A stretch of DNA of 64,000 bases, from the NCBI GenBank assembly GCA_903901045.1, contig CAIUPP010000138.1, forward strand, positions 1 to 64,000, written 5' to 3'. This document shows, in pieces, positions 5,165 through 60,399 of the stretch. Within the stretch, counting starts at the first letter, position 1. Every line of letters begins with the position of its first letter. This DNA is from an uncultured Planctomycetota bacterium. GTDB lineage: Bacteria > Planctomycetota > Brocadiia > CAIUPP01. The translations under genes were made by a program, and so were the position numbers. Under the pieces are notes generated by a model. It was given only the letters and a program-made list of their open reading frames with translations, had not been told where the DNA came from and ran no database searches.

Positions 5165-5214
5165 TATCCTCTCCTGTGACCTTGCAAAGACTGCGTTTTG
5201 CTCTGTTGGGTCGA

Positions 5215-5260: not shown

Positions 5261-5429
5261 GGCCCAAGAGACCCGCGAACAGAATAACCGACCGGGCCGC
5301 CGGCTGCAAACGCGCCGCGCGCCAGCCATCGCAGCGAGAAGCATAGCAGCGCCGCGCCTTGGGCGCAAGAGAAAATCGCCAGTTGCGTAAACAATGAGTT
5401 GCCGGGAATGTGGCACCACCGCGCATGGA

Positions 5430-5580: not shown

Positions 5581-5627
5581 GTTCTCCCCCTCCTCGCCGC
5601 GTGACTCTCCGTGGGGGCCGCCCCTCA

Positions 5628-5655
5628 TTGTGTTTCCTCGCTCGAAAACTATAAT
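5628..5655 (+). promoter_or_regulatory. Sigma-70-like promoter of the IPT/TIG gene
   Basis: TTGTGT (5628-5633) and a perfect TATAAT (5650-5655) are separated by 16 bases and lie about 55 bases before the start codon at 5710. Confidence 0.55.
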
Positions 5656-5709
5656 GGAGCAAGAACGGGGCGGCTGTCTTTCTCGCGAGTACGCGACCGG
5701 GAGGACGGG

Positions 5710-7275: not shown

Positions 7276-9309
7276 TTACGGCGCGCTGACGGTGATGTCC
7301 AGCGAATCGCTGACGGCCGGCTTCACGTTGCTGAAGGTCGCGGTGATGGTGCAGGGCTGGAGGGTCAGGAGCAGGGGCAGGGTCAGCAGGCCCCCTTTGG
7401 CCATCTTCACCCCCTTGATCTTGCTGCACTTCCACTTGACCGCGCTGGTGACGTCGCGGTCGGCGATGCCCGCGTTATAGTGCGCCACGCAGTGGTATTG
7501 CGCCGTGCCCCCCGTGACGGTGAGCGGGCCGTCCACGGTGAGGGAGGTGACGCGCCCGATGGCGAAGTCGTTGTCGCTCTCATCCGAATAGCTGCCGTCC
7601 GGCGTGCTGATCTGAATCCGGTAATCGTCCCCGTCCGGGTAGACCCCCTGCGTCTTCGACTTCCACTTCCCCACCGTCCATTTGAACTTGTTCTTGGGGG
7701 CGCCGGCGGAAAGTTCCCAGCTTTGCCCGTTCCCCTTGAGCAGTTCGATGACCATTTTGGTGTTGCTCGGCAGGCTGGAAATCCAGGTGATCGTCACCGA
7801 CTTGCCGACTTCGAGGCCGATGCCGGTGTCGGAGGGATACGTCACGGCGATCAGTTGGAACTCGAACGCGCCGATGTCGGCGTAGTTGGGAGTGCCGGTC
7901 CCGGTGTTGGGGGTGTTCGGATCGTCGAAGCGGTGATTGCCATCCTTGTCCGTGGAGGGGACCAGCGCGCCGTCGGCCGCGTCAATGCAGGGGGAGCCTT
8001 CCAGCAGGTGCAGGTTGTCCCCTGAGGCGCCGGCGAAGAGGGGATCGGCGTCGATGTTCCCGCCTTCATCCGTCCCGAAATCCGCGTCCCACGCAGCGCT
8101 GCCGCCGCTGCCGGCGACGTCGCAATAGCGGAACTCCGGCGCTGCGGCGTTGGCGTTGACCACTTCCGGCCCCGTGGGGGCGGTGTCGTCCCAGAGGATG
8201 CAGTTGCGCAGGACCGGCGAGGAGGAATCGCTGTAGATCGCGCCGCCGGCGATGCCGGCGGTGTTGAGGTTGAGGGAGCAATTCGTCAGGGCCGGCGCGC
8301 TGTTGGAGAAATTGTAGATTCCGCCGCCGGAGATATCCGCGTTGTTGCCGCCGAGCGTGCAGTTCCTCAGCGCGGGGGAGGAATGGGCGAAGTTGCAGAG
8401 TCCTCCGCCGTACTGCGCGCCGTTCCCGCTGAAGGAGCTTTCGCGCAGCGAGGGGGAAGAGGAGTTGTTGTAGATCGCCCCGCCGTCGCCGGTGGCGGTG
8501 TTGCCGCTGAAATCGCATTGGGTGAGCACGGGGGAGGAGGAACTGCTGTTGGCCATCCCCGCCCCGTTGTCGGCGGCGGCGTTGCCGCTGAAGGAGCAGT
8601 CGGTGAGGGCGGGCGAGGAGTTGCTGTTGCACATCCCGCCGCCATCGCCCTCGGCGGTGTTGTCGATGAACTCGCAACCGGTCATATGGGGCGAGGAGCC
8701 GGCGTTGTACATCGCGCCGCCGTTGTCGTCGGAGGAGTTGTTGCGAAAGATGCAGTTGGTCAGATGCGGCGAAGCGGCGGCGTTGTACATCCCGCCGCCG
8801 CGGTTGTGCGGGGCGGAGGCGAAGTTAGCGTTTCCGTCCGAGATGGTCACGCCGTCGAGAACGGCCGTGTCGTCGATGGCGAGGGGGGCGGGGTTGAACA
8901 CGACGTGGTAGCAGTTGTCGGAGGGTTGCCCCACCGTGCCGATATCCCCGCTCAGAATGACCACGTTGGCCGACGAGTCGCGCTGGTTGCGGGTGGTTTC
9001 GACGCCGCTGAAGCCGCCGTAGATCTGGACGCTGTTCTTCAACTCGAAGTGCTGGGTGCGGCTGCTGAGGCCGAAGCCATAGTCGTTGGTGGGGGTGTAC
9101 GTGCCGGCGGCGATCCAGATTTCATCGCCGGGCTGCACCGCCGCCAGTGCGGATTCCAGGAGGGGAAAGGCGTCGACCCAGGTGAGGCCGGTGTTGGCCC
9201 CGGTGGCGCCCGACCTGACGGCGTAGACCGTTGCCAGGGCCGCCTGCCCGCAGGAAAGAACCAGCATGCCGCACAACGCCAGCGCCAGGAACAAGCTTCG
9301 GTTTCTCAT
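7276..9309 (-). CDS. Secreted right-handed beta-helix protein
   Basis: The 677-residue product has a signal peptide with a Cys (LVLSCGQAALA). Next comes a parallel beta-helix built of repeats such as GGGMYN, SSPALTDCSF and GNTATGDGG, about 10 coils between residues 110 and 400. This is the polymorphic-outer-membrane or choice-of-anchor Q pattern. After about residue 490 a separate module begins at YPSDTGIGLEVGKSV; it is also present at the end of the neighbouring C39-like protein. No catalytic motif is visible, so a surface adhesin or polysaccharide-binding role is an inference. The ATG at 9309 has GAGGAAATGAAG upstream; 9315 is an alternative. Confidence 0.75.
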   Translation of the reverse strand: MRNRSLFLALALCGMLVLSCGQAALATVYAVRSGATGANTGLTWVDAFPLLESALAAVQPGDEIWIAAGTYTPTNDYGFGLSSRTQHFELKNSVQIYGGFSGVETTRNQRDSSANVVILSGDIGTVGQPSDNCYHVVFNPAPLAIDDTAVLDGVTISDGNANFASAPHNRGGGMYNAAASPHLTNCIFRNNSSDDNGGAMYNAGSSPHMTGCEFIDNTAEGDGGGMCNSNSSPALTDCSFSGNAAADNGAGMANSSSSSPVLTQCDFSGNTATGDGGAIYNNSSSPSLRESSFSGNGAQYGGGLCNFAHSSPALRNCTLGGNNADISGGGIYNFSNSAPALTNCSLNLNTAGIAGGAIYSDSSSPVLRNCILWDDTAPTGPEVVNANAAAPEFRYCDVAGSGGSAAWDADFGTDEGGNIDADPLFAGASGDNLHLLEGSPCIDAADGALVPSTDKDGNHRFDDPNTPNTGTGTPNYADIGAFEFQLIAVTYPSDTGIGLEVGKSVTITWISSLPSNTKMVIELLKGNGQSWELSAGAPKNKFKWTVGKWKSKTQGVYPDGDDYRIQISTPDGSYSDESDNDFAIGRVTSLTVDGPLTVTGGTAQYHCVAHYNAGIADRDVTSAVKWKCSKIKGVKMAKGGLLTLPLLLTLQPCTITATFSNVKPAVSDSLDITVSAP

Positions 9310-9464
9310 CTTCATTTCCTCTCGGCGCGCGCCGGCTGCGGCGGGCGCCCCCTGTGTTCTCGACAACCCCATTATTGCAACGCAATTCCCCCGGAGCAGG
9401 GACTGCCTCGCCCCTCCAACAATTCATGCATCCCGCCGGAGCCGGTTAGAGCCGGTTCCACAAC

Positions 9465-9545: not shown

Positions 9546-11180
9546 CTAAGGCGTGATGACGATCGGCAGCGTTCCGATGATCGCGGCGGTTCCCTTGCCG
9601 TAGCTGGCGGTGATCGTGCAGGGCACGTCGGCGCCGGTCACCGGCAGGGTGGCCAGGAGGCCCGTCTTGCCCATCTTGACCCCCTTGATCTTGGTGCAAG
9701 CCCATTTGGCGGGGGTGACGGTGAGGTCGCCGCCGAAGTTGAGATGGCCGGTGCAGGTATATTGCGGCTGGGGGAGGGCCCCGCCGACGATCGAGGTGGA
9801 GCCGTTCACGGTGAGCGAGGTGACGTGCCCGATCGCAAAGGGTGAGTCGCTCATGTCAACGGCGCCGCCGCTGACGGTGCTGACGGAGATCCGGTACTGG
9901 TCGCCATCGGGATAGGGCGCCTGCCCGGTCTTCGACTTCCACGTCCCGACCGCTTTCCAGAGCCAGGAGCCGGTGTTCGGGACGGAGGGCGCGAGGATCC
10001 AGCTATGCCCATCCCCATCCTGCAGGGTGATCTGCATGGGAGTCTTCGTGGTGAGTTCCTCGGTCTGCGTGTGCCAACGGATGACATAGCTCTGGCCGCG
10101 CTCGAACGCGATGCCGGTGTCGGAGGGGTAATCCAGGGTCACCGGCACGATGGGCGGCTCCCCGCTGGCCGCGAGACGCAGCACGGTGACGCCGTACTGA
10201 AGCATGCCACTGTACGAGCCGCCCCAGGTCATGGAGTGGTTGAGGTTGTCCCAGGTATCATGGATGTAGATGGTGCTGCTGCCGCTATCGTAGCCATAGC
10301 CGAGCATCGTATGCCCTTCCACCTGGATCAGCACGGGCCGGCCGGCGTCAATCTCCGTCTGGAAATTGGCGAAGGTGAACCCCTGCGGCTGGGTGGGATC
10401 GGTGGGATTGGGATAGATGTACTGGCTGAAATTGGCCGTGACCGTGTAGCCCCTGGACTCGGCGAAGAGCCTCATCCCGTGGCAGCCGTCGCGCCCGCTC
10501 GGCTCGCAGCCGGTATAGTTGGACAGCGCGACGCCGTCGCTCCCGAAGTAGAAGATCGTGGAGCCGTCCGTGTTGGGGCCGTAGTAACTGGTGAAGCTGG
10601 ACTGGTTGGTTCCCATGTAATCGCCGGTGCACTCCCCCTGGGTGTGCTGCGTCCAGCCATGGACGATCCAGGGATCGGGGCCGGCATTGCCGTAGTCAAT
10701 CCAGTAGTCGTCCACGTGACCGCGAATGGCGCGCCCATCCTTGCCCATATGCGTCGCGCTGAGGGGGCACTCGCCATCCCCGCCCGGCAGGGAGCTGTTC
10801 CCCCAGAAGGTCACGTTGTTCAGCGGGCAGACGCCGCTGTTGGCCGGCCCGGCGTACATGTTCGCGTAGCCATTCCGGTCGTAGTACCCCATCATCATCG
10901 CGGCGGAGGTGGCGGAGCAGCCGTAGCACCAGGTGAAGGCCGGCACGCCGGAGAGGACGTTGACCCCTGAGGCAGGATTCGCCTTCGGGGCCTGCACCAC
11001 CGGGGCTTTGACTTCCGGAGGACGGCCCGGGACGATGATCTCGTCAACCTGTTGTCCGGTCTTGTCCACGTAGCGCCCGACCACGTAGGGATTCTTCGCG
11101 CCGTACGCGGCGGCGGAGAAGAAGGCCGACGCCAGGATCACGCCCAGCACAGCAACGCAGCTTCCGCGAAGGTAATTCAT
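9546..11180 (-). CDS. Secreted C39-like cysteine peptidase with shared C-terminal module
   Basis: A signal peptide (1-27) leads into a papain-like C39_2 domain at about residues 60-330. The catalytic Cys lies in WCYGCSATSAAMMMGYYDR, and the His and Asn/Asp candidates in GHTMLGYGYD and HDTWDN. After about residue 340 the protein repeats the module seen in the preceding beta-helix protein, starting at YPSDTGIAFERGQSYVIRW and including KTGQAPYPDGD and CTKIKGVKMGK. It probably acts outside the cell, either as a peptidase or as an anchored binding protein. The ATG follows AGGAGGA, and TTGCAG-16-TACAAT (11287-11260) is a good promoter. Length is about 544 residues. Confidence 0.78.
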   Translation of the reverse strand: MNYLRGSCVAVLGVILASAFFSAAAYGAKNPYVVGRYVDKTGQQVDEIIVPGRPPEVKAPVVQAPKANPASGVNVLSGVPAFTWCYGCSATSAAMMMGYYDRNGYANMYAGPANSGVCPLNNVTFWGNSSLPGGDGECPLSATHMGKDGRAIRGHVDDYWIDYGNAGPDPWIVHGWTQHTQGECTGDYMGTNQSSFTSYYGPNTDGSTIFYFGSDGVALSNYTGCEPSGRDGCHGMRLFAESRGYTVTANFSQYIYPNPTDPTQPQGFTFANFQTEIDAGRPVLIQVEGHTMLGYGYDSGSSTIYIHDTWDNLNHSMTWGGSYSGMLQYGVTVLRLAASGEPPIVPVTLDYPSDTGIAFERGQSYVIRWHTQTEELTTKTPMQITLQDGDGHSWILAPSVPNTGSWLWKAVGTWKSKTGQAPYPDGDQYRISVSTVSGGAVDMSDSPFAIGHVTSLTVNGSTSIVGGALPQPQYTCTGHLNFGGDLTVTPAKWACTKIKGVKMGKTGLLATLPVTGADVPCTITASYGKGTAAIIGTLPIVITP

Positions 11181-11259
11181 GGGACGGTTCCTCCTGCACA
11201 TAAACAAGGCCCCCGACGGCGTGGAATGGTGGACTATCACAGCCACTTTTTACTGCTCT

Positions 11260-11920: not shown

Positions 11921-11965
11921 GGTCTTCTCCTTTTAATGAAGGTCCCAAGGGTGAATGCGTCGCAA

Positions 11966-13406
11966 TTACTTTGACACGCTGCGAGGGCGAGGCATGCCCT
12001 GCCCCTGCAAACTCTGGCGCTTCGGCCAGGTGGCGGGTTTCGTGAAGAGCGCAAAGCCGGGGTGGCGCGCCAGGGGTTGGAAGCCCATGGCGCAGGCGGG
12101 GGCCAGGCAATGCGCGTCGGCGATGAGCCGCCCCCCCCACTTTGAGCGCGCGGAAAAGCTCCCAGAGCCAGTCGGCAAGGGAATCGCCGTCGGGCATTCC
12201 CAGTAGCGCGGCGCTCTCCTGCGTGCGATCGAACACCGGGATGGGCAGCCGATGGCAGGCTTCGAGCCGAAGGTCGTGCCGGACGCCCGCGGAGCGGAGG
12301 GTGCGCGCGAACAGCCCCGCGACGTCGAGCAGCCGCCCGCGCGGCGGAAGGAGAGAGGCGAGGCGGCGGAGGACCTGGGGGTCCGCGGGAGGCTCCCCGA
12401 AGGGCGCGGAGGCCATGACCGCCCGCGCCTCGCCATGGGTGAGGACTTGCCGGGCCGCGTCGAGGACTTCGGGCACGCTCAGCCGCGCCAGGCAGGGGCA
12501 GGTGCGCCCCGCCTCCTTGAGCGCCATGCGCTGGCAGGCGGCGGGGCGAGACCAGTAGCAGGGCCAATGGCAGTCAAGGGAAGCACAGCCGGGGGCGGCT
12601 GTGCCGCACGGGTCGGGCTGAATGTAGGAATGGCGCGGGTAGTGCCGGTAGAGAACCGCGCCGGATTGCGAGGCGGTGAGGCCGAGGGCGCGCCCGCCCG
12701 CTGCGCCGCACAGGTGCGCCAGGCCGCTATCCGGGGCGATGAGCAGATCGGCGATGCTCAGCAGCGCGGCCAGTTCCAGCAGGGGGAGGCCGACGACTTG
12801 CGGCGCGGGGAAGTCGCGGGTGCGCGCGGGGACGCAATCCAGGATGAAGACGCCTTACTCCTCCCGCGCGAGTTCGCCCGCCAGCGCGCGCCAGCTTTCC
12901 CTGGGCCAGTCGCGCGCGGGGTCGGTGCTGAACGGCTGAAGGGCGACCCAGCCCCTCCGGCGACGGATGCCTCGCTCCTCCAGGAGACGCCGGGCGGCCG
13001 CGCGTTCCTCGGCGGTGATCGGGAGATGGGGGGTAAGCGATGCGGGCCACGCGTCGGCGGCGGCGCAGAAAAGCTCGATGCGGTCGTTCCACACTTCGCC
13101 GCGCACGTCCGCCTCGTGCCGGAAGGCGGGGCAATAGAGGTCCACGGTCAGATCGTACCTGGTCCCGGTGTTGAGGTAAGGAAACTGCGCCTCGTCCGCC
13201 GGGGCGAGGCGGGGACGGCGATTGGGGGGCGTCGGGATGACCCTGTCGGCGTCGCCAACGCCGCGCTCGACCAGGCAGGAATATTCCGGCGGGACGAAGA
13301 CATGGATCACCGACGTCGGATGCTTCCGGCGCAGCCCCGCGATGGCGGGCAGGATGCGGACCGCGTCGCCGATGCCGCCGGATTCTCGCAAGACGCGGAT
13401 GTTCAT
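11966..13406 (-). pseudogene. Broken GT9 glycosyltransferase-methyltransferase fusion
   Basis: The first part (13406 to 12858) is an ADP-heptose-type GT9 domain: SGGIGDAVRILPAIAGLRRK and PFSTDPARDWPRESWRALA. An in-frame TAA at 12857-12855 interrupts it after LAREE. The same frame then continues with the expected second half, GVFILDCVP and LLIAPDSGLAHLCGAAGG, so one substitution (for example CAA to TAA) would explain the stop. Downstream is a methyltransferase-like region ending LWELFRALKVGG. At an 8-G run (12138-12131) the frame must shift by one base to continue as RLIADAHCLAPACAMGFQP to the stop at 11966. Two lesions argue for decay; sequencing error at the homopolymer remains possible. Confidence 0.7.
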
Positions 13407-13470: not shown

Positions 13471-13830
13471 TCACCACCGGAACATGTGCCGCAGGAGGAG
13501 TTCGGCGGCGAGGACGACCAGCGGGGTGACGATGGCGGCGGCGACCCCGCCGTAGAGCGCCGCGCGGGTTTTGAGGACGGCGATGTCCACGTTCTGGACG
13601 CCGTTGCTCTTGTGGAGCGCGCGCACCGCCTGGCGGATTTCCTCGATGGCGTCGCCGAGAAAGGCCATGGCCGCGCCGAGCCGCTCGATTTTGCGCTCCA
13701 GCGGAAGGTGGCGCGCGCAGGTGTCGGAGGGGCGTCGCTCCGAAGCCTGCTCCGGAAGGGGGTCCAGCGGGTCGGCGTCTTCGAGCAGGTCGCGGATCCG
13801 GTCGCCGCACGATTTCGCGAGTGGGGTCAT
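13471..13830 (-). CDS. Coiled-coil protein with C-terminal membrane segment
   Basis: A 119-residue protein with a helical coiled coil (about 45-75, ERKIERLGAAMAFLGDAIEE), a conserved-looking QNVDIAVLKTRAALYGG stretch, and a membrane helix at 93-115 ending in HMFRW. The order resembles XhlA-type and other holin-associated phage proteins. Its ATG overlaps the last codons of the radical SAM gene by 4 bases, which implies translational coupling. Confidence 0.65.
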   Translation of the reverse strand: MTPLAKSCGDRIRDLLEDADPLDPLPEQASERRPSDTCARHLPLERKIERLGAAMAFLGDAIEEIRQAVRALHKSNGVQNVDIAVLKTRAALYGGVAAAIVTPLVVLAAELLLRHMFRW

Positions 13831-15413
13831 TTCTCCCTTCCTCTCTCATCCGCGCCCAGACCCGCCGCCTTGAGCGCTTCTTCCTGGGTGAGTTGCGCGG
13901 CGATCCAGAGGACTTGCTTCATCATCACGCGGCGCGCGGCGCAGACGTTGGGGACCGGAGCCGTGACCGCGCCGCCGATTTCGACGCGGTTCTGCGCGCA
14001 GCCGCCGCCGCAGAGGTAGCGCGCCCAGCATTCCGCGCACTCCGGATGCTCGTTGATGCAGTTGCGCAGCCAGGGTTGGCGGGCGGAGGAGTCAAACGAC
14101 GGATTGGACTGATCCGACGGATCGGGCAGATGCCCTATGGCGGTGCCGCTCTCGCGATGGCAGGCGAAGATTTTGCCGTCCGGGCCGACGGTGAGGTAGC
14201 CTCGGCCAGCGCCGCACTCGCTGCCGTGGAATTCGCAGTTGAGCAGCCGCGCGAGGATCTTGCGGAAGTAGAAGAAGGGGAAGGGCTTGCCCGCCCTGGC
14301 GCGCTCGACGAACCACTCCGCCGCGGCATGCCATTCCTCTTCCAGGCGCGCGAGGTCCATCTCCGTCTGCGGGACGGAGGCGCAGCCCTCGGCCAGGATC
14401 GCCGGCTCGATGCTGACGCCAGAGATTTTGCCAAGCCGGTAAAGCGCGTCGAAGAACTCCAGGCGCTCGACGAGCTGCGCGGGGAGTTCGGAGAAGGTCG
14501 CGCGGATGGAAGGGATGATGCCGGCGGCGTTGAGGGCGTCGAGACCGGACATTGCGAGGTCGAAGGAGGACGGATGATTTGCGATTGGCGATTGGCGATT
14601 ACGCGGTGCGCACGGCGCACCTGTGATTTGCGAATTAACGGCGGCGTCCGCGGCCGTTGGCCGCGATGCATTATGGATTTCCTTGGGGCCGTCCAATGAG
14701 AGGAGGACAGAGAAGTTGAAGCGCTTGAGCGCGGCGGCTTTGAGCGGGGTGATGAGGGTGCCGTTGGTGGTGACGTGGAGGCTGTAAGAGACCTTGCGCT
14801 CGTAGGCGAGCTGGTAGATGCGCTCGGCGGTGAGGATCAGGGTCGGCCAGGCGAGGAGAGGCTCGCCGCCGAAGAAAGAGACGGACAACGGAGCACGATT
14901 TCTGAATTCTGATTTCTGATTACTGATTTCTGACTTGGCGTCCTTGGCGACAGGTGCGCCTGCGCACCGGGCTTGGCGGTTCACTCCATCGTCGAACAGC
15001 GAGAGCGCTTTGAAGGCGGTTTCGGGGGGCATTGCAGGCGCGCCGTGCGCGCCGCCAGGGACACCGTCGTAGTCGGCTGCGAAGCAGTACTTGCAGCGCA
15101 GGTTGCAGGCATGGGTGAGGTTGAGGACGAGTTTGCGGACCCGTTCGACTCGCTCCGCTCGCTCAGGGCCGCCGGCAGGCGGCGGGAACTCCGGAGCGAC
15201 GCCGGAGAAGAGCAGGCCGGTGAAGCCGTCAGGGCCTTTCTCCAGCTTGTGGGCGGCGGCCGCGTCCACCTGAACGGCGCAAAGGGAATTCGGGTCGAAG
15301 GCGACATGGACGTCGTCCGGCCATGAGAACAGAACTGTCTCCGGCTTGCACGGTTTCACGCTGCGCGGGGGCGCGCACTTCACGTTCAGCAATCGGATCA
15401 CTTTTGTCTCCAC
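13827..15413 (-). CDS. Radical SAM/SPASM peptide maturase
   Basis: This 528-residue enzyme has the radical SAM motif CNLRCKYC at about residue 102, followed by FFGGEPLL and a TIM-barrel core. A C-terminal SPASM region has Cys at CEFHGSECGAGRG, at ACHRE, and in PECAECWARYLCGGGC, enough for two auxiliary Fe-S clusters. This is the architecture of Cys-rich peptide maturases (CcpM, SCIFF maturases, QhpD), which form thioether bridges. It directly follows a tail protein with about 80 Cys, its obvious candidate substrate. The GTG at 15413 is preceded by AAAGGAG with 6-base spacing; an ATG at 15479 lacks a ribosome site. Two heptad-repeat inserts (about residues 158-173 and 253-283) interrupt the fold in frame. 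Confidence 0.85.
   Translation of the reverse strand: METKVIRLLNVKCAPPRSVKPCKPETVLFSWPDDVHVAFDPNSLCAVQVDAAAAHKLEKGPDGFTGLLFSGVAPEFPPPAGGPERAERVERVRKLVLNLTHACNLRCKYCFAADYDGVPGGAHGAPAMPPETAFKALSLFDDGVNRQARCAGAPVAKDAKSEISNQKSEFRNRAPLSVSFFGGEPLLAWPTLILTAERIYQLAYERKVSYSLHVTTNGTLITPLKAAALKRFNFSVLLSLDGPKEIHNASRPTAADAAVNSQITGAPCAPRNRQSPIANHPSSFDLAMSGLDALNAAGIIPSIRATFSELPAQLVERLEFFDALYRLGKISGVSIEPAILAEGCASVPQTEMDLARLEEEWHAAAEWFVERARAGKPFPFFYFRKILARLLNCEFHGSECGAGRGYLTVGPDGKIFACHRESGTAIGHLPDPSDQSNPSFDSSARQPWLRNCINEHPECAECWARYLCGGGCAQNRVEIGGAVTAPVPNVCAARRVMMKQVLWIAAQLTQEEALKAAGLGADERGREK
14575..14655. repeat. In-frame GATTTGCGATTGGCG repeat insert in the radical SAM gene
   Basis: The stretch carries GATTTGCGATTGGCGATTGG and GCGCACGGCGCACC, the same heptamers that fill neighbouring spacers, yet the reading frame stays open. 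It encodes about 30 residues (INRQSPIANHP-like) between conserved strands. Confidence 0.6.
14892..14945. repeat. In-frame TGATTTCTGATTACTG repeat insert in the radical SAM gene
   Basis: A second run of heptamers (ATTTCTGAATTCTGATTTC...) is translated as AKSEISNQKSEFRNR just before the conserved FFGGEP strand. The same heptamers occur in the spacer near 20530. Confidence 0.6.
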
Positions 15414-15547
15414 GCCGATCTCCTTTTTTCGTCGCCAGCCGTCCTCATTGCGGCCAGCAGCTTTTCCTTGCAGTGGCAACAGCCGCGCGCATCCCTGCGG
15501 CCGTCGTGAGGCTGATGCTCCTTCAAACGTTTCTCAAGAGTCCTCAA
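15398..15547 (-). CDS. Candidate 49-residue Cys-containing protein between tail and maturase genes
   Basis: A TTG start overlaps the TGA of the tail gene (TTGA), and the ORF runs 49 codons to a TGA at 15400-15398, overlapping the GTG start of the radical SAM gene by 16 bases. The product is basic and contains GCCHCKEKLLAAM, a CCxC cluster. The tight overlaps on both sides suggest a coupled gene. It could be a small zinc-binding protein, a maturase partner, or a peptide substrate. No homologue comes to mind, and the absence of a clear ribosome site lowers confidence. Confidence 0.42.
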   Translation of the reverse strand: MRTLEKRLKEHQPHDGRRDARGCCHCKEKLLAAMRTAGDEKRRSAWRQK

Positions 15548-18500
15548 AGTTGCACCTCTTGAATTCCCATATTCCGCGCAATGGCCAGCGCACCGGCAGA
15601 TCCCAGCCCGTACTGCCGAAGGGTCAGCAGGATGCGCGCCTTGCTCACGTTGTCCAGCGACCGGCTGTCCTGGATGCGCTGCATCAGCAGCGCGGACTTT
15701 GCCTCGTGCGCCCCAGCCAGCAGGGCCAACCGGTCCTGCGAAAGAGCCGTCTCGATCTCAGCGTCGGGGTTGGCGTCATCCTCCAGCATGCGGGCGAAGG
15801 GGCGCGGCCTGTAGTAGAGCGTGCCGCCGGGCACCGTCCGGCTGGGCCAGGTGTGGCCGGGGTAGAATACCTGCTGCCCCTCCTTGCCGAACGTGCGCGC
15901 CACGTCGCCGGTGTGCGCTTCGGCCGGCGGATGCATCCCATCGGCCACGAAGTAGGCGTTACGCCGCGCGCGCCGGATTGCGTTCCAAAGCGCCTGGTCA
16001 AATTGCGTCGGGGAGGCCGGTGTGACCTTATCCAGGTCAGCCGCATGCAGGCCAACGGGAACTGCGAGTGACTCCGGCAATATCCAGCTATCGTCAGTCG
16101 TCCACCCGGTGACGCCCGGAGGCAAATCAGGCTCCCAGACGCCTCGCTTGTTCTGTCGTCTACGGACCCACACCCAGACGAAGTCATCTGGTCCTGGGTT
16201 GGCCGCGACGATGGGGCATGAGGGGGGAAGATGCAGCGCGTAGTTGTCCAGCTCAAGATAATTGCCGTTGTACACACAGCCAATCGGCCCAGCCGCTCCG
16301 CTGCCGAGCGCGCTGTCGACGAACGTGTACACCTGGGCGCCGTTCTTGAAAACGGTGTGACTGCTGCCATTCGCGCGGTGCAAATACGTGGCATTGTAGG
16401 CCCACTCTGACACCGCCAAGTTCCCCATCCACGACGCTCCGACGATCTTTGCGGTGGCGATCGCGTAATTACTGCCCGCATCGTTGAGCGTGGTGTAATA
16501 GCAGTTGCCGTTGCTCGCGCGCACGGCCACTCCTCCACCGCCGCTGGAAGCCGGAACGTTGGTCTCGATGGCCACATCATAGTTGTTGCCGCAGGAGCCC
16601 CAACGGGCGTCCGGAAGCGCCGAAAAGCTGTTAGTTCCCCCCGACTTGCTGAAGCGCAGCTTGTTCGACATGATGGCCCATGTGCCTGTCGCCCAGCCGC
16701 TGAGGAATGTGATGGGAGATCCAAAGTTCGCGCCCGGAGCGCCATCGGCGCGGTTGAAGTCGTCGGAGAAGGAGCATTGGCTGGCGGTCTCGCAGCCGGT
16801 TTCACAATGCGTCTGGCAGCCCGTCTCACAGTGGGTTTGGCAACCCGTCTCACAGTGGGTCTGGCAGCCGGTCTGGCAAGCGGCCTGGCAACCGGTTTCG
16901 CAGGTCACCTGGCACCCGGTTTCACAGTGGATCTGGCAACCGGTTTCGCAGGCGACCTGGCAACCGGTTTCGCAGTGGGTCTGGCAACCGGTCTCGCAGG
17001 CGACCTGGCAACCGGTTTCGCAGGTGATCTGGCAGGAAGTGGCGCAGGTTTCGCCGGCGGTTTCGCATTCCAATTCGCAGCCGGTCTCGCACGCGAGCTG
17101 GCAGGAGGCCTGACAGGCGACTTCGCAGTTTGCCTGGCACCCGGTCTGGCAGGAATGCGCGCAGGATTCCGCGCCGATTTCGCATTCCAGTTCGCAACCG
17201 GTCTGGCACGTGGCGGACTCGCAGGCGGCCTGGCAGGAGGAGGCGCAGGACTCGGCCCCGGTCTGGCAGTGCACTTCGCAACGCACCTCGCATTGGGTTT
17301 CGCAGCCGGTCTGACAGGCGGTCTGGCAGAGCAGTTCGCAGGCGGTTTCGCAGGCGGACTCGCAGTGCGTCTGGCAGCCGGTTTCGCAATCGGTCTCGCA
17401 GCCGCCGGTTTCGCAGGAGAGTTCGCAGCCGCTCTGGCAGGAGGTCTGGCAATCGGACTGGCAGTGGGTTTCGCAGGCGGATTCGCACTGCACCTGGCAG
17501 CCGGTCTCGCAGGCGATTTCGCAGCCGACTTCGCAGGCGGTCTCGCGGGCGATTTGGCAGCCGGTCTGGCAGGAATCGAGTTCGCACGAGGTGGTGCAGG
17601 CGGTTTCGCATGCGCCGCAGGGCCCGGACTCGGAGCAGCCGGTGTCGGCGCGGGCGCAATACTCCTCGCTGGAGGTAGTGCAGCCGACGATCTGACAATG
17701 GTCCTCGCAGGAGGTTTCGCATTGCCAGCAGCTTTCGGCGGCCAGCTCGCAGGCGTATTCGCAGCCGGTTTCGCAGCCGCCGGTTTCGCAACCGGCCTCG
17801 CACGCGGCGGCGCAGCCGGGGGAGCGCGGCAGGCGCAGGGTCAGTTCGATACCGGGGGCGGCGTTGGCCTCGCCGCCGCCGGGGAGGTGGTCCAACTGGA
17901 AGATGCGCGCCCCCTGCCCGGCGGCGAAGAGGCTGGGGTAAGCGAGGCTGACGGCGTCGTTGCGCTGGAGTTCCAGCCCCTTGAGCCAGCAGCGCAGTCG
18001 GACGATTTCGTAGACGCGCTTCATCCGCTCCAGCCAGAAGGCGGCGACGTTGAGCACGCAGCGGCGGTCAGCGTAGGCCCAGAAATCGCGCTCGACGGCG
18101 CGCCGGCCCAGGGCGGACTCGACCGCGGCGTCGCGCAGAAGCAGCTTCTTCTCGCTGCCCCGCTCGGTGAAGGTGCAGACAATTTCGCTGGCGATGTCTT
18201 CGAGGGCGGATTGCTCGCGTCGCACGCTGCCGAGTTCGAAACGGTCGGCGTCGAGGACGGATTCCGCGGCGGTGACGTGGTTGTGGAGGAGGCTCAGCCG
18301 CGCGCAGCCGTCGTCCCAGTTGAGGGCGCAGCGCGCCTGCCAGGCGAGGTCGGCCAGCAGGTCGAGCAGGTCGCGCTGCCGGGTGAGGGCAAAACCCATC
18401 TTGAGCGAGGCGAGCGCCCCGCGCGCGGAATCGAAGGACTCCGCCTCCACGTCGGCGGCGGGGACGTTCCCCCAGCGCGGGTGGGTGAGAAGGCTCAGCA

Positions 18501-19716
18501 GGACGTCGGCGGGGTTCTCGATGAGTGCGCCGGTGGAATCGCCGGCGCTTTCCGCGCCCTCCACGTCGGCCCAGATGCGGTTGGAGGTGAGCTGCGGCCA
18601 GAGTTCCTGCGGCAGGCGGGGGAAGGTGAGGGTGGTGACGTTGTGCCCCAGGACGGCGGCGAAACGGCTGTCGTTCAGGTTGACCTGGCAGAGGTCGGCA
18701 TCGAGGCGGAAGTAACCTTCAAAGTCGCTGGGGACGGCGGCGTCCGAACCGTCGGAGGGGTTGCGCGCGCGGCCGTACCCCTCGACGTTGAGGACGGCTT
18801 TGCAGGGGTGATCGGCGACGATGAAGATGTAGCCATCCTGCTCGATGACCACCTCGGCGCCGGCTTCGTGCGCGAGGTTGAGCGTTGCGCCGCGGCTCTC
18901 GATGCTGTACGGAGTGCCGGCGGGCAGCGTGTCGGAACCGCTGTGGTAGTAAGGGATTGGGCCGAAGTAGATTCGGCGGCGGACGCCGTCGTAGGCGACG
19001 ATTCGCCGGTACGGGGCGAGGCCGCCCCAGTCGCCGGGAACGCAGAGGTTGTAGCCGACGTAGCGTCCGCTGACGGCGCTGAGGCCGAGGTCGTCGAAGG
19101 AGGTCTGATCCACGGCGGCGCCGACGGTGCGGTCGGGCGCGACGGCGACGTAGCGCGCGGTGGCGTGGAAGGTGTTCCCCTGGAAAGAGCCGGCGGCGAC
19201 CTCTCCCTGAATGCGGATGGTGATGGGGGTGTTCTGGGGGAAGGCGGAGGCGTCGTCCACGAAGAGGCGCATGTCCTCCCAGAGGCAGCGGCGGGTGAGG
19301 CGCGCGACGGGGCCGATGTCGGCGGGGACGCATTCGCTGCGGCGCACGCGCCCGAACAGAATGGGGAGCATGGCGCGTTCATGCGACTCGGCGACGAAGG
19401 GGAACGTGGCGCGGTCGCTGAGGAGGCCGAGGGTTTTGCGATAGCGCGTCGAGTAGTCGGTGAGGCGCAGTGTCAGGCGGCGGCGCTCATCCTCCCACTG
19501 CGGCGCATCGTTGATGATCCCCTTGAAGAGGGGGGTGAGGTGCGGCTTGTCGAGGCCGACGAAGTGCTGGTAAAGGGTGACCACTTTTCCCTGGAACGGC
19601 ACGGACTGCCCGTAGCCATGCCAGAGGCCGTCGTGGTCGGAGAGCGCCAGCGGGGTGCCCCCCACCGGGTCAGGCAGGGCCACAGTGGCGGCGTTCAGCG
19701 TCAGCGTTACGCTCAT
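15544..19716 (-). CDS. Giant tail protein with Cys-tetrad rod
   Basis: Residues 1-630 resemble a phage tail-tip or baseplate protein (HERAMLPILFGRVRRSE, then RLRCWLKGLELQRNDAVSLA). Residues 635-981 are a run of C-x3 tetrads such as CETGCQTHCETGCQVA, with about 80 Cys by my count and Glu or Gln after most of them. The pattern is most regular near its end, where an 8-residue unit repeats about ten times. A LamG/concanavalin-like jelly roll follows (about 983-1165, starting SFSDDFNRADGAPGANFG), then a C-terminal domain with PDDFVWVWVRRR and a helical end. The ATG follows AAGGAG. The next genes are a radical SAM/SPASM enzyme and a possible small partner, so the Cys rod is probably modified after translation. 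Confidence 0.85.
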   Translation of the reverse strand: MSVTLTLNAATVALPDPVGGTPLALSDHDGLWHGYGQSVPFQGKVVTLYQHFVGLDKPHLTPLFKGIINDAPQWEDERRRLTLRLTDYSTRYRKTLGLLSDRATFPFVAESHERAMLPILFGRVRRSECVPADIGPVARLTRRCLWEDMRLFVDDASAFPQNTPITIRIQGEVAAGSFQGNTFHATARYVAVAPDRTVGAAVDQTSFDDLGLSAVSGRYVGYNLCVPGDWGGLAPYRRIVAYDGVRRRIYFGPIPYYHSGSDTLPAGTPYSIESRGATLNLAHEAGAEVVIEQDGYIFIVADHPCKAVLNVEGYGRARNPSDGSDAAVPSDFEGYFRLDADLCQVNLNDSRFAAVLGHNVTTLTFPRLPQELWPQLTSNRIWADVEGAESAGDSTGALIENPADVLLSLLTHPRWGNVPAADVEAESFDSARGALASLKMGFALTRQRDLLDLLADLAWQARCALNWDDGCARLSLLHNHVTAAESVLDADRFELGSVRREQSALEDIASEIVCTFTERGSEKKLLLRDAAVESALGRRAVERDFWAYADRRCVLNVAAFWLERMKRVYEIVRLRCWLKGLELQRNDAVSLAYPSLFAAGQGARIFQLDHLPGGGEANAAPGIELTLRLPRSPGCAAACEAGCETGGCETGCEYACELAAESCWQCETSCEDHCQIVGCTTSSEEYCARADTGCSESGPCGACETACTTSCELDSCQTGCQIARETACEVGCEIACETGCQVQCESACETHCQSDCQTSCQSGCELSCETGGCETDCETGCQTHCESACETACELLCQTACQTGCETQCEVRCEVHCQTGAESCASSCQAACESATCQTGCELECEIGAESCAHSCQTGCQANCEVACQASCQLACETGCELECETAGETCATSCQITCETGCQVACETGCQTHCETGCQVACETGCQIHCETGCQVTCETGCQAACQTGCQTHCETGCQTHCETGCQTHCETGCETASQCSFSDDFNRADGAPGANFGSPITFLSGWATGTWAIMSNKLRFSKSGGTNSFSALPDARWGSCGNNYDVAIETNVPASSGGGGVAVRASNGNCYYTTLNDAGSNYAIATAKIVGASWMGNLAVSEWAYNATYLHRANGSSHTVFKNGAQVYTFVDSALGSGAAGPIGCVYNGNYLELDNYALHLPPSCPIVAANPGPDDFVWVWVRRRQNKRGVWEPDLPPGVTGWTTDDSWILPESLAVPVGLHAADLDKVTPASPTQFDQALWNAIRRARRNAYFVADGMHPPAEAHTGDVARTFGKEGQQVFYPGHTWPSRTVPGGTLYYRPRPFARMLEDDANPDAEIETALSQDRLALLAGAHEAKSALLMQRIQDSRSLDNVSKARILLTLRQYGLGSAGALAIARNMGIQEVQL
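16774..17814 (-). repeat. Cys-tetrad coding repeat (12- and 24-bp periodicity)
   Basis: The DNA shows 12-bp periods, for example plus-strand CTGGCAACCGGTTTCGCAGG recurring with small changes. The 24-bp unit is most uniform at 16790-17035, suggesting recent tandem duplication there and older diverged copies upstream in the protein. The antisense strand stays open through the repeat and gives a spurious LATGFAGD-type protein. Confidence 0.85.
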
Positions 19717-20499
19717 GGTTCACTCCTTCCGCGTCAGAGGGGGACACAAAACTTTCCCGCGGAAAGTATTGTGTCCCCACTTTCCTTCTCCGAAGTTCCA
19801 GGATGCGCGCCCGGACGGCCGGGTCGCTTGCGGCATGCAACGCGCTGAGGGGACGGCGGCCGAGCGCGGCTTCCTCGCGCGAGAGGCGGCGGAATGCGGC
19901 GTCCAGTTCCGAGGGGTCGGCCCGCATCAGCCGAAGCAGCCAGAGGCGCTCGCGGAGGCGGTCGAGCCGGCGCAGGCGCGCGGCGCGCAGCAGCCCCGGC
20001 AATTCCTCCAGCGGCAAGGCCAGCGCTTCGGCCCGCGAGAGGCCGGCGTCCGTCAGCTCGAAGAGGAGCGCGTCGAGCCGGCCAGGCTCGCGCTGACGGA
20101 TTCCAGCGTCCTGCGGGCCGCGCCGAAAAAACCGCGCATCTCCTCCGCCATGCGGGGCCAGTCGTTCACTTCAAGGGAGGCGGTGAGCAGGCGCAGGCAG
20201 TCGCCGGGGCTCCAGAGCGCGGCTTCGGCGGGTTCGCGGCGCGCGACGCAGGCGGCCAGCGGCGCGAGCAGTTCGGGGAAGCGCAGGGCGAAGCGGCCGA
20301 TCGCGCGCAGAAGCGCCTGCTCGCTCAGCGCCTCCTCAGCCACGAGCAAGCCTTCCAGCCCCCCTTCCGGGATGGCCTGGCGGATGCAGCGAGCCAGGGA
20401 GGCGAGGTCGGCGACGGTGAGCTTTCCGACTGGAATTTCGGAGCCGTCGTCGAGGAGGACGGCGCGCGAGGAGGGCGGAAGCGCGTCAGGCGTGGGCAT
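19670..20499 (-). CDS. Tail assembly chaperone, long form by -1 frameshift (GT-like)
   Basis: Translation starts at 20499 as for the short form. A -1 slip at TTTTTTC (20131-20125) opens a frame that stays free of stops and encodes EPGRLDALLFELTDAG and LSREEAALGRRPLSALHAA, a typical T-domain of lambda G-GT chaperones. The fused product would be 276 residues. Its last 30 residues are encoded by palindrome P1 copy 2 and then overlap the start of the tail gene by 47 bases. Confidence 0.72.
19739..19780. repeat. Dispersed palindrome family P1, copy 2
   Basis: GGGACACAAAACTTTCCC with loop GCGG and the complementary arm GGAAAGTATTGTGTCCCC. It lies between the chaperone and tail genes and is read through as KVGTQYFPRESFVSPSD at the C-terminus of the frameshifted chaperone. 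Confidence 0.75.
20053..20499 (-). CDS. Tail assembly chaperone, short form (G-like)
   Basis: A 148-residue protein located between the tail tube and tail tip genes, the usual place for the G protein that chaperones tape measure and tube assembly. The text reads DDGSEIPVGKLTVADLASLARC and later a helical region. The segment MRGFFGAARR contains the slip site for the long form. Confidence 0.7.
   Translation of the reverse strand: MPTPDALPPSSRAVLLDDGSEIPVGKLTVADLASLARCIRQAIPEGGLEGLLVAEEALSEQALLRAIGRFALRFPELLAPLAACVARREPAEAALWSPGDCLRLLTASLEVNDWPRMAEEMRGFFGAARRTLESVSASLAGSTRSSSS
20125..20131 (-). promoter_or_regulatory. T_TTT_TTC -1 ribosomal frameshift site
   Basis: The minus strand reads GGT TTT TTC in the zero frame, which is the classical X_XXY_YYZ heptamer. 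It lies in the position expected for a G/GT chaperone, and the -1 frame downstream is open to 19670. Confidence 0.7.
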
Positions 20500-20523
20500 G
20501 CGGGAATCTCCTTGTTGGAAGAA

Positions 20524-20652
20524 GGACGGCGATTTGCGATTACTGATTTCTGATTACTGAATTGTGATTTGACGGCGACAACAAGCGCGCTGGGACAGCG
20601 CGCTCCACCATTCTGCACTCTGCGTTCTGCGCTCTGCATTCTGCATTCCGTC
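20524..20652. repeat. Two heptamer repeat types in a phage spacer
   Basis: GATTTGCGATTACTGATTTC-type heptamers at 20526-20568 are followed by CTGCACTCTGCGTTCTGCGC-type heptamers at 20609-20650, with a GCGCGCTGGGACAGCGCGCTCC hairpin between them. This fills the whole gap between the tail tube and chaperone genes. Confidence 0.6.
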
Positions 20653-21165
20653 TTACGCGCCCGAAGGGACGTTGATCGTGCCGAGCTGCTGGCCGTCCGG
20701 CTTGGACTCGTCGACGAGGGCGATCAGGGTGACTTCGAGGACGCGGTCCTCCTCGCTGTTGAACGTGACCTCGGCCCACTCCCTGACCACCGCGCGGTGG
20801 ATGAGGATGTCCTCGCTGGTGGAGGGGTTGGCTTTGAGGGGGCGGATGGTGAGGGCGACGGCGCTATCGCCGAGGCGCGCGCCGGGGGCGCGGCCGAAAC
20901 GCACGGCGTTGCCCGATACGCTGGCGCCGGGCAGCAGCGACTGGATGTTGGCCAGCACCCACTGGGCGCAGCGGAAGGTGATGCGCGGCTGGCAGCCGGT
21001 GTGGATGAGGTCGACGATGTTCTCCCCCTGTTTCGCGGTCTTGCGCTCGCGCGTCTGGATGCCGAGATGGAAGATCACATCTCCCTCGGTGTGCCCGACG
21101 GAGACGCCGCCCAGGAGGATCTCGGCGGGGCCGGTGCGGATTTCGGATGCGGAGGTCGTTGCCAT
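20653..21165 (-). CDS. Major tail tube protein
   Basis: This 170-residue protein opens with AEILLGGVSVGHTEGDVIFH, a pattern common in siphophage tail tube proteins, and is beta-rich throughout. Its position between DUF3168-type completion protein and the chaperone is canonical. It would polymerise into the tail tube. Confidence 0.7.
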   Translation of the reverse strand: MATTSASEIRTGPAEILLGGVSVGHTEGDVIFHLGIQTRERKTAKQGENIVDLIHTGCQPRITFRCAQWVLANIQSLLPGASVSGNAVRFGRAPGARLGDSAVALTIRPLKANPSTSEDILIHRAVVREWAEVTFNSEEDRVLEVTLIALVDESKPDGQQLGTINVPSGA

Positions 21166-23302: not shown

Positions 23303-24388
23303 CTACGCCGGTTGAACACGGCCTTCGGCGCACTGGCTCGCGCCCAGGCCATCGCCCTCTATTTCCCGCAGCGCGCGGAGAAGGCGGAAGGCGGCGTGCG
23401 CCCAGGTGAAGCGGCGGCGGACGTGCTCGGCGGCGCGGCGGCCGATCTGCCCGATGCGCCGCGGGTGCTGCCTGGCCCAGAGGATTTTCGCGGCAAGGTC
23501 GGCGACGTCCGGCTCGACGGCCCGGAGGAGCAGGTCGCAGTTGCCATGCGGCGAGAGCAGGCGAAACTTGCGGCCGGGCGTCGCGCGCAGCGGGATGGCG
23601 CAGCGCTCATCGGCCAGGTCCAGGAGCGAGGTGCAAGGGGTGTACAGGGCGGGGAGCCCGCAGGCCATCGCCTCGCCCAGGGTGAAACCGAACCCCTCCC
23701 CCATGCTCGGGAGAGCGAAGAGGTCCGCGCTCTGATACAACTCGCGCAATGCGGCGATGCCGAGGTCGCGGCTGTCGAAGATGACGTTACCCGCGCGCTC
23801 AAGCCGGTTGGTGCCGGTGGTCTTCATGTAAAGCTCGTAGCCGGGGACGTTCTGAAACGCGCGCCAGGCACCGAGGAGAAATTGGTACCCCTTGCGGTCG
23901 TTCGGCGCGCCGACCCAGAGGACGCGGAAGGCGCGACGGCCCAACGGCCGCGGACCGGGATAGAAGCTCTCCACGTCCACTCCCTGCGGGACGTACAGGA
24001 CCGGGACGGGGACGAGCTTCTTGAAGACGGGCACGAGGAAGCGCGCGGTGACGAAGATGGCGTCGGCGCCCTGGTGGAGCGCGCTGTCCTCAGCGCGCTC
24101 GGCGCCGCAGCAAGCCGGCTGGGGACAGCCGGCTCCACCACGACCTGGGGTAAGCGTGGCGCTCTCCCATTCCGGGAGTTCGGGGAATTCCCACGCGGTC
24201 CAGAGGACGTTGCAGCGCCCCGGGATCGGCCGGAAGGCGTGCGGCGGACAATGGTGCAGCGCGAGCGGGGCGTCGGGGTCGAGGCGGACGCCCGCCATCT
24301 CCAGGCAGCGACGCCCCCAGCGGTTGCCCTGGGTGTAGCCATAGGCATCGCCGATGCCCTGAACGTCGGTTGCCCAGGCGATTCTCAT
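23303..24388 (-). CDS. GT4-type glycosyltransferase within the head-gene cluster
   Basis: About 361 residues with a GT-B fold. The C-terminal nucleotide-sugar domain is clear: FRVLWVGAPNDRKG, then ADLFALPSMGEGFGFTLGEAMACGLP with the E-x7-E motif. It lies between capsid and connector genes on the same strand, so it is cargo or decorates virion or host surface. Residues about 85-110 (PACCGAERAEDSALHQG) come from two host palindromes inserted in frame at 24077-24139. The ATG at 24388 begins MRIAWATDVQG; an upstream ATG would add 20 low-complexity residues. Confidence 0.75.
   Translation of the reverse strand: MRIAWATDVQGIGDAYGYTQGNRWGRRCLEMAGVRLDPDAPLALHHCPPHAFRPIPGRCNVLWTAWEFPELPEWESATLTPGRGGAGCPQPACCGAERAEDSALHQGADAIFVTARFLVPVFKKLVPVPVLYVPQGVDVESFYPGPRPLGRRAFRVLWVGAPNDRKGYQFLLGAWRAFQNVPGYELYMKTTGTNRLERAGNVIFDSRDLGIAALRELYQSADLFALPSMGEGFGFTLGEAMACGLPALYTPCTSLLDLADERCAIPLRATPGRKFRLLSPHGNCDLLLRAVEPDVADLAAKILWARQHPRRIGQIGRRAAEHVRRRFTWAHAAFRLLRALREIEGDGLGASQCAEGRVQPA
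24077..24139. repeat. Two palindromes inside the glycosyltransferase gene
   Basis: GAGCGCGCTGTCCTCAGCGC (24077-24100) and GCCGGCTGGGGACAGCCGGC (24115-24134) are members of the GCTG(A/T)GGACAGC-centred family that also occurs three times near 25.7 kb. The reading frame is kept through both. Confidence 0.7.
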
Positions 24389-24525
24389 GTCATGCCTCGG
24401 AAAGAAATGGACGGAGATGGACGAACACGGACTGACACGGACAGGCACGGAGGACAGCGGAGGTTCGTGGCGTAATATTCACGTTGCCGTCCTCCGTGTC
24501 TCCGTGCCCCCGTGGTGAGCCGCTG

Positions 24526-25647
24526 TTACGACGGAACGGTGAATGCGCCGGATTTGCGGAAGGCGTCGGCCTGGGCGACCTTGCCGTCCACGCGCTCGAT
24601 GACCTTGATTCCGAGCTGATGCTTGCGGAAGGTCTCGCCGCCGGTGGTGGTGGTTTCAATCAGCATGCGCTGCCGGTCGAACCAGGCGTACTTGGCCAGG
24701 TTGCCGAAGAAGATCAGGCCGTCGGCGAGGTCGGCCTGGGTGCTGTAAGGCTTGCCGAGCAGCAGGCTGGGGGCGTCGGCAATGAGCGGGTCGCGCAGGA
24801 TGGGCATCTTCTGCTCATCCTTGATGCGCAGGCACCAGGAGAGGGTATTCTCGCTCATGACCCAGCGCGCGGCGGCGTGATGCTTGCGCGGGAGGGCGAA
24901 CTTCAGCGCGAGGAGCTTGTCGTAGCTGATCGCTCCGCTGCAGCCGTCCACGGCGGCGATGCCGGAGGCGCTGACGAGCCCCTCGGGCTGGCCGTCGCCG
25001 TCGCCGACGCAGATCTTCTTGTCGCGCTCGGCGGCGATGGCTTCGGCGAAGAGCTGCTGGACGGTGTCCACGATGCCGGGGTTGGCGTCGTCCACCAGTT
25101 CGCGGGAGATGAAGGTGACGGCGCTCATGCCGGCGATGGCCCAGTCGACGTGGCCGAAGACCGGGTCGGCGATGTCGATGTCCTCATTCTCGGCGCGGCC
25201 CCAGGTGATGCTGACGCCGGTGGCGAGGGTGGGGAAGTCGCCGGTGTCGGTGATGACGGGGACCTTGCGGACGTACGGGAAGACTTCGGAGAGCTCGGGG
25301 ACGAGCTGCTCCAGTTCGGCCTGGTAGCCCGGGGGCGCCAGGTAGCCGCCGGCGGTGGCGGAGCCTTCGGAGAGGGCCTTGACGACGGCGTCGTCCAGGT
25401 CGGCGCGAGGGTTGATGCCGAGCTTGAGGATGCCGAGCAGGTAGGCGCGCTCGAAACGGCGCTTCTCCTCGGAGGGGGCCAGCGGCGCGCCGCCGAAGAG
25501 CCCCGCTTTGCGGGCGACTTTGTCCAGGCCGCGATCGCGGACGGCCTTTTCGACCGCGTCGGTCACGATCCCCTGGAGGTTCTCCGAGAGGCTGACCTGC
25601 GCGGCGATTTTCGACGCGAGGGCGTCGAGTTCCTTGTTCTCTTCCAT
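24526..25647 (-). CDS. HK97-type major capsid protein
   Basis: About 373 residues. An N-terminal helical scaffold-like delta region (ELDALASKIAAQVSLSENLQ) precedes the HK97 fold, seen in TAGGYLAPPGYQAELEQLVPE, a P-loop and A-domain with VPVITDTGDFP, and FGNLAKYAWFDRQRMLIETT near the C-terminus. The ATG at 25647 follows GGGAG; an upstream extension would only translate palindromic repeats. It forms the icosahedral shell. Confidence 0.9.
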   Translation of the reverse strand: MEENKELDALASKIAAQVSLSENLQGIVTDAVEKAVRDRGLDKVARKAGLFGGAPLAPSEEKRRFERAYLLGILKLGINPRADLDDAVVKALSEGSATAGGYLAPPGYQAELEQLVPELSEVFPYVRKVPVITDTGDFPTLATGVSITWGRAENEDIDIADPVFGHVDWAIAGMSAVTFISRELVDDANPGIVDTVQQLFAEAIAAERDKKICVGDGDGQPEGLVSASGIAAVDGCSGAISYDKLLALKFALPRKHHAAARWVMSENTLSWCLRIKDEQKMPILRDPLIADAPSLLLGKPYSTQADLADGLIFFGNLAKYAWFDRQRMLIETTTTGGETFRKHQLGIKVIERVDGKVAQADAFRKSGAFTVPS

Positions 25648-25659
25648 TGGGTTCTCCCT

Positions 25660-25782
25660 TGTGGTGGAGCGCGCTGTCCTCAGCGCGCTCGGCAAAACGG
25701 CGAACAACAAACGCGCTGTCCTCAGCGCGCCCGGCAAAAACGGCGGACAACAAGCGCGCTGAGGACAGCGCGCTCCACCATA
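25660..25782. repeat. Triple palindrome array upstream of the capsid gene
   Basis: Three palindromes with core GCGCTG-CC-CAGCGC (about 25667-25692, 25711-25733 and 25753-25777) lie in the capsid leader, the third in opposite orientation. Each can form a hairpin and the outer two can pair with each other. Confidence 0.7.
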
Positions 25783-26662: not shown

Positions 26663-26723
26663 GGGGGAATCCTTAAAGGACTGCAAGGACTACAAGGACT
26701 GCAACGACAACGGCGGGGAGGCG

Positions 26724-60396: not shown

Positions 60397-60399
60397 AGC

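Follow-up and report, generated by a model that had tools for sequence, protein, structure and literature searches.

A cysteine rod in a phage tail-tip protein and the radical SAM/SPASM enzyme that probably cross-links it into a gamma-thioether ladder

The window, a 64,000-nucleotide stretch of DNA from an uncultured Planctomycetota bacterium (contig CAIUPP010000138.1), encoded a phage tail-tip hub protein of 1390 aa with a cysteine rod (15544..19716, minus strand). The large gene that came next, starting 64 bp downstream of the tail gene on that strand, encoded a radical SAM/SPASM maturase of 550 aa (13827..15479, minus strand). The enzyme–substrate pairing of maturase and rod was well supported. 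We consider it probable, with a chance of about two in three, that the rod is a substrate domain of the virion in which a ranthipeptide-type maturase forms a ladder of gamma-thioethers from Cys(i) to residue i+5, giving a compact fibre. Many uncultured phages have a long ladder of this kind on their tail-tip proteins, nearly always adjoined by the radical SAM enzyme; therefore, the fibre is probably held by tens of sulphur cross-links.

The window sits on an 87.6-kb contig of a bacterial genome bin of 4.77 Mb, which contained no 16S gene. The tail gene belonged to a prophage-like, minus-strand head-tail module flanked by bacterial genes, namely PPDK (35165-37981) and a FabA-like gene (4691-5662). 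Profiles and context identified the terminase (28119-29597), followed on the minus strand by the portal (26724-27911), the head protease (25814-26686), and the major head protein (24526-25737). Then came head-tail adaptors, tail completion, the tail terminator, an Ig-domain tail protein, the 1390-aa tail protein, and the radical SAM/SPASM gene, so that the hub gene lay downstream of the head, adaptor, terminator, and Ig-domain tail genes, as expected of a gpJ-like hub. The interval from the Ig-domain tail protein to the hub (19670-21165) held only ORFs of 115 and 148 aa and no tape-measure-sized gene, while relatives had one of 775-1011 aa just upstream of the hub. The element may accordingly have a very short tail or be decayed. 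A glycosyltransferase gene was found within the head-tail cassette (23303-24448; phrog_2170, 7e-18), and a GT9-like fragment lay past the maturase gene (12855-13406). Two adjacent proteins, one with polymorphic membrane protein repeats (7276-9372) and one a C39-like peptidase (9546-11246), had a common C-terminal domain of the phrog_14098 type. A second integrated element starts at 58895-61706, with a tRNA-Leu and, after it, a phage integrase gene (5.4e-19) and a gene like replication O.

Residues 1-634 of the tail protein (17815..19716, minus strand) formed a gpJ-like tail-tip hub, with seven homologues among the rod carriers (E values of 1e-29 to 1e-78 over these residues). The sequence-profile support for a tail function was weak (phrog_1101, tail, 1.2e-6). 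Residues 1-780 were modelled by AF2 with the help of homologues on seven virus contigs. The model, good only for about residues 290-630, was compared by Foldseek and matched the lambda tail tip (8xcg, 1.3e-13), JBD30 (8rk3, 8e-13), T5 (7zqp, 2e-12), and the native GTA (6tba, 4e-10). The earlier note had called the product a phage tail protein, and this was confirmed by the structure model together with the gene context. BLAST, which masks low complexity, gave no match of the tail protein to annotated phages. The hub fold is common to the window protein and the hubs of lambda gpJ, T5, and JBD30, but the central fibres of the known hubs are fibronectin-like or coiled, and these hubs are not known to bear a Cys ladder or to come with a maturase. 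Past the rod, a folded-looking domain starting with DDFNRADG (residues 985-1165; 16222..16764, minus strand) was recognised from its sequence only and appeared to resemble the lectin-like domains of phage minor tail proteins. Neither this domain nor the C-terminal region (residues 1166-1390; 15547..16221, minus strand) had a Pfam or PDB sequence match.

The rod itself occupied residues 635-981 (16774..17814, minus strand) as a C-[E/Q]-x-x repeat. It held exactly 80 Cys, in line with the earlier count of about 80, with a gap of 4 in 63 of the 79 intervals, 5 in five, and 7 in five; E or Q directly followed 86% of the Cys. Its codons varied (TGC 73 and TGT 7; GAA 33 and GAG 18; CAG 27 and CAA 5), and 67% of the tetrads were distinct. 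A 5-Cys pattern matched 36 times in the rod, compared with none for the reversed control pattern; it had no further match in the rest of the 4.77-Mb genome or in the genomes of 57 close relatives of the host, which had no rods. The AF2/AlphaFold prediction of the bare rod was uninformative, with pLDDT values of about 25-30 and no structure.

The enzyme was listed with a TTG start, and its true start may lie further in. It carried C125-N-L-R-C-K-Y-C132 and CAECWARYLCGGGC, and it matched Radical_SAM PF04055 with 42.1 bits (1.4e-10; cut-off 29.5) and SPASM TIGR04085 with 50.6 bits (2e-13; cut-off 27), which confirmed that the next full-size gene is a radical SAM/SPASM gene, as proposed earlier. 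PF13186 gave 14.2 bits, below its cut-off of 21.5. In 33 aligned maturases, C125 and C132 were invariant and C129 was kept in more than 90%; the SPASM cysteines C422, C481, C484, C494, and C513 were also invariant. The nearest solved relative was CteB (5wgg), with 1e-31 by sequence and 1.3e-20 by structure model, and the second structural match was to anaerobic sulfatase maturases. In the search for a leader-binding RRE domain, residues 27-80 were modelled as a small beta-rich N-terminal domain, and the alignment with CteB spanned 522 columns. Two insertions, at residues ~172-195 (KSEISNQKSEFRNR) and 285-305 (NRQSPIANHPSS), looked like small interspersed repeats, with kindred text at ~20540-20640, and the model confidence fell there. 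A quick tree was made of 45 enzymes. Eleven rod maturases, the window enzyme among them, made up a clade with support 99, which shared its side of a weakly supported split with the bacterial SCIFF maturases. The remaining rod maturases fell into further clades; therefore, several origins are possible, and rod maturases may have come from several radical SAM/SPASM branches.

The residue grammar of the rods was analysed in 60 non-redundant rod proteins. The frequency of E or Q after a Cys depended on the distance to the previous Cys: it was 91% (1929/2127) for a Cys four residues upstream, 90% for five, 72% for three, 51% for six, 18-24% for seven to eight, and 16% where there was none. The first Cys of a chain was followed by E or Q in 15 of 94 cases and the last in 59 of 94 (63%). 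Similarly, E or Q followed 26 of 140 start-like and 104 of 137 end-like Cys (Fisher p 1.4e-22; protein-wise sign test 39:5). The identity of the following residue thus depended on the previous Cys and not on the next, indicating that the acceptor belongs to the Cys five residues back. Among 2350 acceptors, E made up 47.6%, Q 43.0%, T 4.3%, M 1.8%, V 0.9%, and L 0.5%; S never occurred, N (0.1%), D (0.3%), and G (0.1%) were rare, and D, N, G, and A together came to about 1%. The common acceptors all possess a gamma C-H. In the window rod, the acceptor place was E, Q, or T for 70 of the 72 Cys pairs at a spacing of 3-6. By this C-x3-C-[acceptor] grammar, each thioether is predicted to link Cys(i) with residue i+5, which would give about 70 of them in the window rod. 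To our knowledge, Gln as a thioether acceptor has no precedent. The SCIFF peptides of six loci, C-x2-C-Q-x2-C-Q-x2-C-K-T-S-C-T/G, obeyed the same rule (GGCGECQTSCQSACKTSCT).

The bond of CteA has been reported at C-gamma, and Cys32 and Thr37 of Tte1186/CteA are five residues apart; a competing result gave Cys32-Thr34 (i+2) instead of Thr37, and a single thioether is known in SCIFFs (PMC8326336). The pairing and the thioether chemistry could be as proposed with a different connectivity: a Glu or Gln joined to the following Cys ([EQ]-x-x-C), a Cys joined to i+2 as for CteA Thr34, or an alpha-carbon sactionine. E and Q also lie three residues ahead of the next Cys, as in NxxcA, which joins Asn20 to Cys23 (PMC8326336), and Thr was the commonest i+2 residue in the window rod. 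The asymmetry between first and last Cys disfavoured the NxxC-type connectivity, and the i+2 position varied freely in the rods. A different connectivity was therefore judged unlikely, and the i-to-i+5 ladder was retained as the preferred reading.

The window system behaves like a ranthipeptide system by its sequences, yet it falls outside both SCIFF and TIGR04117. It has in common with SCIFF/CteB (PDB 5WGG/5WHY; TIGR03974) the radical SAM/SPASM fold with CxxxCxxC and the C-x3-C-[acceptor] grammar, and the link to ranthipeptide chemistry drawn in the earlier note was thus supported by the nearest structure and by the rule. The SCIFF substrate is a peptide of about 45 residues with a leader and one proven thioether, whereas the candidate substrate here is a domain in a virion protein of 1390 aa, with mainly Glu and Gln at its tens of sites. 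No short SCIFF precursor with a leader was found, and the tail protein had no NCBIfam peptide match. The maturase scored 131.9 bits against TIGR03974 (cut-off 425), 129.8 against PapB NF047865 (cut-off 340), and 101.4 against QhpD (cut-off 453), and it stayed under every NCBIfam equivalog cut-off among those shown. The best PapB NF047865 score among the rod maturases scanned was 263.4 (L132). The nearest prior notice of C-x3 repeats as possible radical SAM targets is TIGR04117, the Cys-Xaa-Xaa-Xaa repeat target predicted by others, whose maturase is TIGR04115. The phage rod protein of L133 matched TIGR04117 with 35.2 bits, below the cut-off of 50, and the window tail protein did not match it; no phage-tail link or residue grammar for TIGR04117 was found in the literature searched. 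PapB (freyrasin) and QhpD maturases belong to the same enzyme branch as the window enzyme and act on different substrates. In their thioethers, the acceptor is C-terminal of the Cys. They form Cys-Asp and Cys-Glu thioethers (PMC8326336), and the rods avoid Asp.

The enzyme might also modify the rod without thioethers, by epimerisation, by Cys oxidation as in sulfatase maturation, or by modification of Glu or Gln. SPASM enzymes catalyse many reactions, and the likeness to anaerobic sulfatase maturases points the same way, but CteB was nearer by both sequence and structure, and a grammar of Cys with a distant acceptor, lacking S, N, and D acceptors, fits a cross-link better. We regard such a modification as quite improbable compared with cross-linking.

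The association of enzyme and rod was studied across viruses. Pattern scans of IMG/VR, filtered for long, E/Q-rich, and sequence-diverse rods, gave 46 distinct records, among which L123/L019 and L135 had a lower tetrad diversity and were retained for their very long rods. Entire records were searched for radical SAM genes, and the neighbourhoods were inspected. Eight records (G058, G067, G074, G083, G088, G093, G112, and G115) were left out, their contigs ending at the rod or close to it. G074 was dropped as an exception, its contig stopping short of the position that the enzyme takes in the twin L124. The enzyme was present in 37 of the 38 assessable records, two of which (G059 and G066) were below the Pfam cut-off and were counted by a family HMM match and the CxxxCxxC motif. 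The single exception was G114, which had a 52-Cys rod and no radical SAM gene within its 35.6-kb contig. In 41 mapped loci, which include three bacterial contigs (L188, L225, and L261) and two near-identical pairs, rod and enzyme genes were on the same strand in 40, on the same strand within 2 kb in 37, and within 150 bp or overlapping in 29.

Furthermore, a homologue search with the hub domain alone, the rod excluded, yielded eight rod-bearing homologues with the enzyme in 6 of 6 assessable cases, whereas the enzyme was found in none of eight rod-less homologues (six of them with at least 3.7 kb of downstream sequence). Homologous tail genes lacking the maturase had been named in the earlier note as adverse to the pairing; the outcome favoured the note, as only the rod-less ones lacked it. 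Other radical SAM genes occurred in 10 of 14 marine records caught by single spurious pattern matches; therefore, mere presence in a phage is weak evidence, and adjacency and the SPASM type count. Scans for baseplate gpI homologues without rods yielded too few for comparison. Cys-dense repeats commonly bind metal or form disulphides, which would favour a metal-binding or disulphide-bonded fibre, with the radical SAM gene serving something else. Such a fibre, to which no result pointed directly, is very unlikely in view of the co-occurrence, the adjacency, and the contrast between rod-bearing and rod-less members of one hub family; moreover, Gln is not a usual metal ligand, and the first-Cys rule has no obvious metal explanation.

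With the window maturase as the only query, the virus search returned one weak locus. Records labelled as human-gut "phage" and holding the closest maturases were rejected as phage evidence: wherever a precursor was visible, it was a bacterial SCIFF peptide, and a rod was absent from all of them. Several of the GenBank "Bacteriophage sp." fecal scaffolds L104-L117 (MT835472-MT839930) looked like bacterial SCIFF loci with precursor peptides and are probably mislabelled. One hub homologue (L383:9827-14245) had, in place of the rod, an irregular Cys-rich stretch of other spacing, with 25 Cys between residues 687 and 851, and another radical SAM gene (L383:15317-16405) lay 1 kb on. The gut phage phAss-1 (L398, OQ749652; TAG=Gln code) had an unannotated radical SAM enzyme at 11950-13143 and then CNTCNVGCDIQCRTCITCNSC at ~13575; the enzyme is related and the Cys pattern differs, perhaps representing a different Cys code. 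In two contigs (L317/L334; L380, L381), a 130-aa protein with 22 clustered Cys, mostly without E or Q (CGDSCENICGECTGCGG), directly followed a radical SAM gene.

The rods were found on various carrier proteins, with up to 188 Cys in one rod protein. P2 gpI-like baseplate proteins carried them, often as tandem duplicates (Tail_P2_I in L148 and L124), as did a YqbQ-like protein in L120 and a tail-fibre-like protein in L142; in the clostridial-type loci L188, L225, and L374, the carrier was a protein of 560-780 aa with the rod close to its N-terminus. The ladder is therefore a module on unrelated virion proteins. The enzymes also differed. Rod maturases of 793-846 aa occurred at L127:9109-11535, L132:10200-12578, and perhaps L375:8169-10706. 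Two of these gave matches of ~340 residues to a radical SAM model that contains an intein, lying either before the radical SAM core or within it, and inteins therefore seem to sit inside phage rod maturases. Between rod and maturase lay a further, short radical SAM gene (276-294 aa, CNLRCKHCY) at L126:5052-5933, L147:15953-16780, L376:2459-3286, and L302:922-1749; it had a weak likeness to the ACGX and tungsten-cofactor maturase families, and a further modification is possible. A third, divergent radical SAM type (CNAGCxYCPS) adjoined the longest rods (128-188 Cys) at L123:17121-18641, L135:3482-4603, and L118:3-1136.

The codons of six pairs of related rods were compared. No amino-acid change was found at 251 Cys positions despite many silent changes; the acceptor changes were mostly between E and Q, and the two other tetrad positions changed freely. 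The rods are under codon-level purifying selection. In addition, Thr acceptors occurred only with the maturase clade of the window (8/11, compared with 0/11 elsewhere), and C-x2-C gaps of three residues were mostly in two other maturase clades. These differences point to enzyme specificity, the independent clades being few and each representing one evolutionary event. The co-variation of rod grammar and maturase clade, in agreement with the co-occurrence and the hub-family contrast, strongly supported the proposal that the enzyme acts on the rod. The reading in the earlier note was thus supported in part, its bonds and its stiff fibre or needle being putative. Tetrad diversity, together with codon variation and changes, ruled out a DNA microsatellite origin of the window rod. 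A functionless low-complexity repeat expansion with an enzyme nearby by chance can be dismissed, since the C4 arrays that do come from 12-nt microsatellites had few distinct tetrads and any radical SAM gene in only 2 of 23 IMG/VR records, while true rods are diverse and selected, and the comparisons already refute it.

For the i-to-i+5 ladder, we infer the reaction, the connectivity, and a stiffness or mechanical role of the fibre as follows. The N-terminal part of the hub would form the tail tip, and the Cys rod would hang below it, where lambda gpJ has its central fibre. The radical SAM/SPASM enzyme would move along the rod ahead of assembly, taking a gamma hydrogen from the Glu or Gln (sometimes Thr or Met) after each Cys and bonding that gamma carbon to the sulphur of the preceding Cys. 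The product would be a series of thioethers that overlap, each running from Cys(i) to residue i+5; the window rod could have up to ~70 of them, with 2 Da lost for each. The unmodified rod has no predictable fold; stapled, it would be a compact fibre resisting proteases, reduction, and denaturation, and it would carry the distal domain, which is probably receptor-binding.

Known thioethers formed by radical SAM enzymes occur in small peptides and in one subunit of an amine dehydrogenase. No report of this chemistry in phage tails, or of such a ladder in any virus, was found in the literature searched, subscription papers and preprints lying outside its scope. We see an even chance that radical SAM/SPASM enzymes were taken up by several unrelated lineages of tailed phages, where they convert Cys-x3 domains of virion proteins, at the tail tip, in the baseplate, and elsewhere, into continuous gamma-thioether ladders with 10 to 180 cross-links. 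Such ladders would be a covalent structural polymer within virions, produced by a local C-x3-C-[E/Q/T/M] rule and with no classical short precursor peptide. If this is true, radical SAM thioether chemistry would be a widespread structural device of virus particles, with a testable code for which Cys pairs with which residue. It would also provide a large set of natural enzymes, which may accept Gln as well as Glu and act at tens of sites per chain, and offer an explanation for tail fibres that lie beyond sequence and structure predictors. Moreover, it bears on the question of why the remaining Cys of SCIFFs are conserved, as they obey the same rule.
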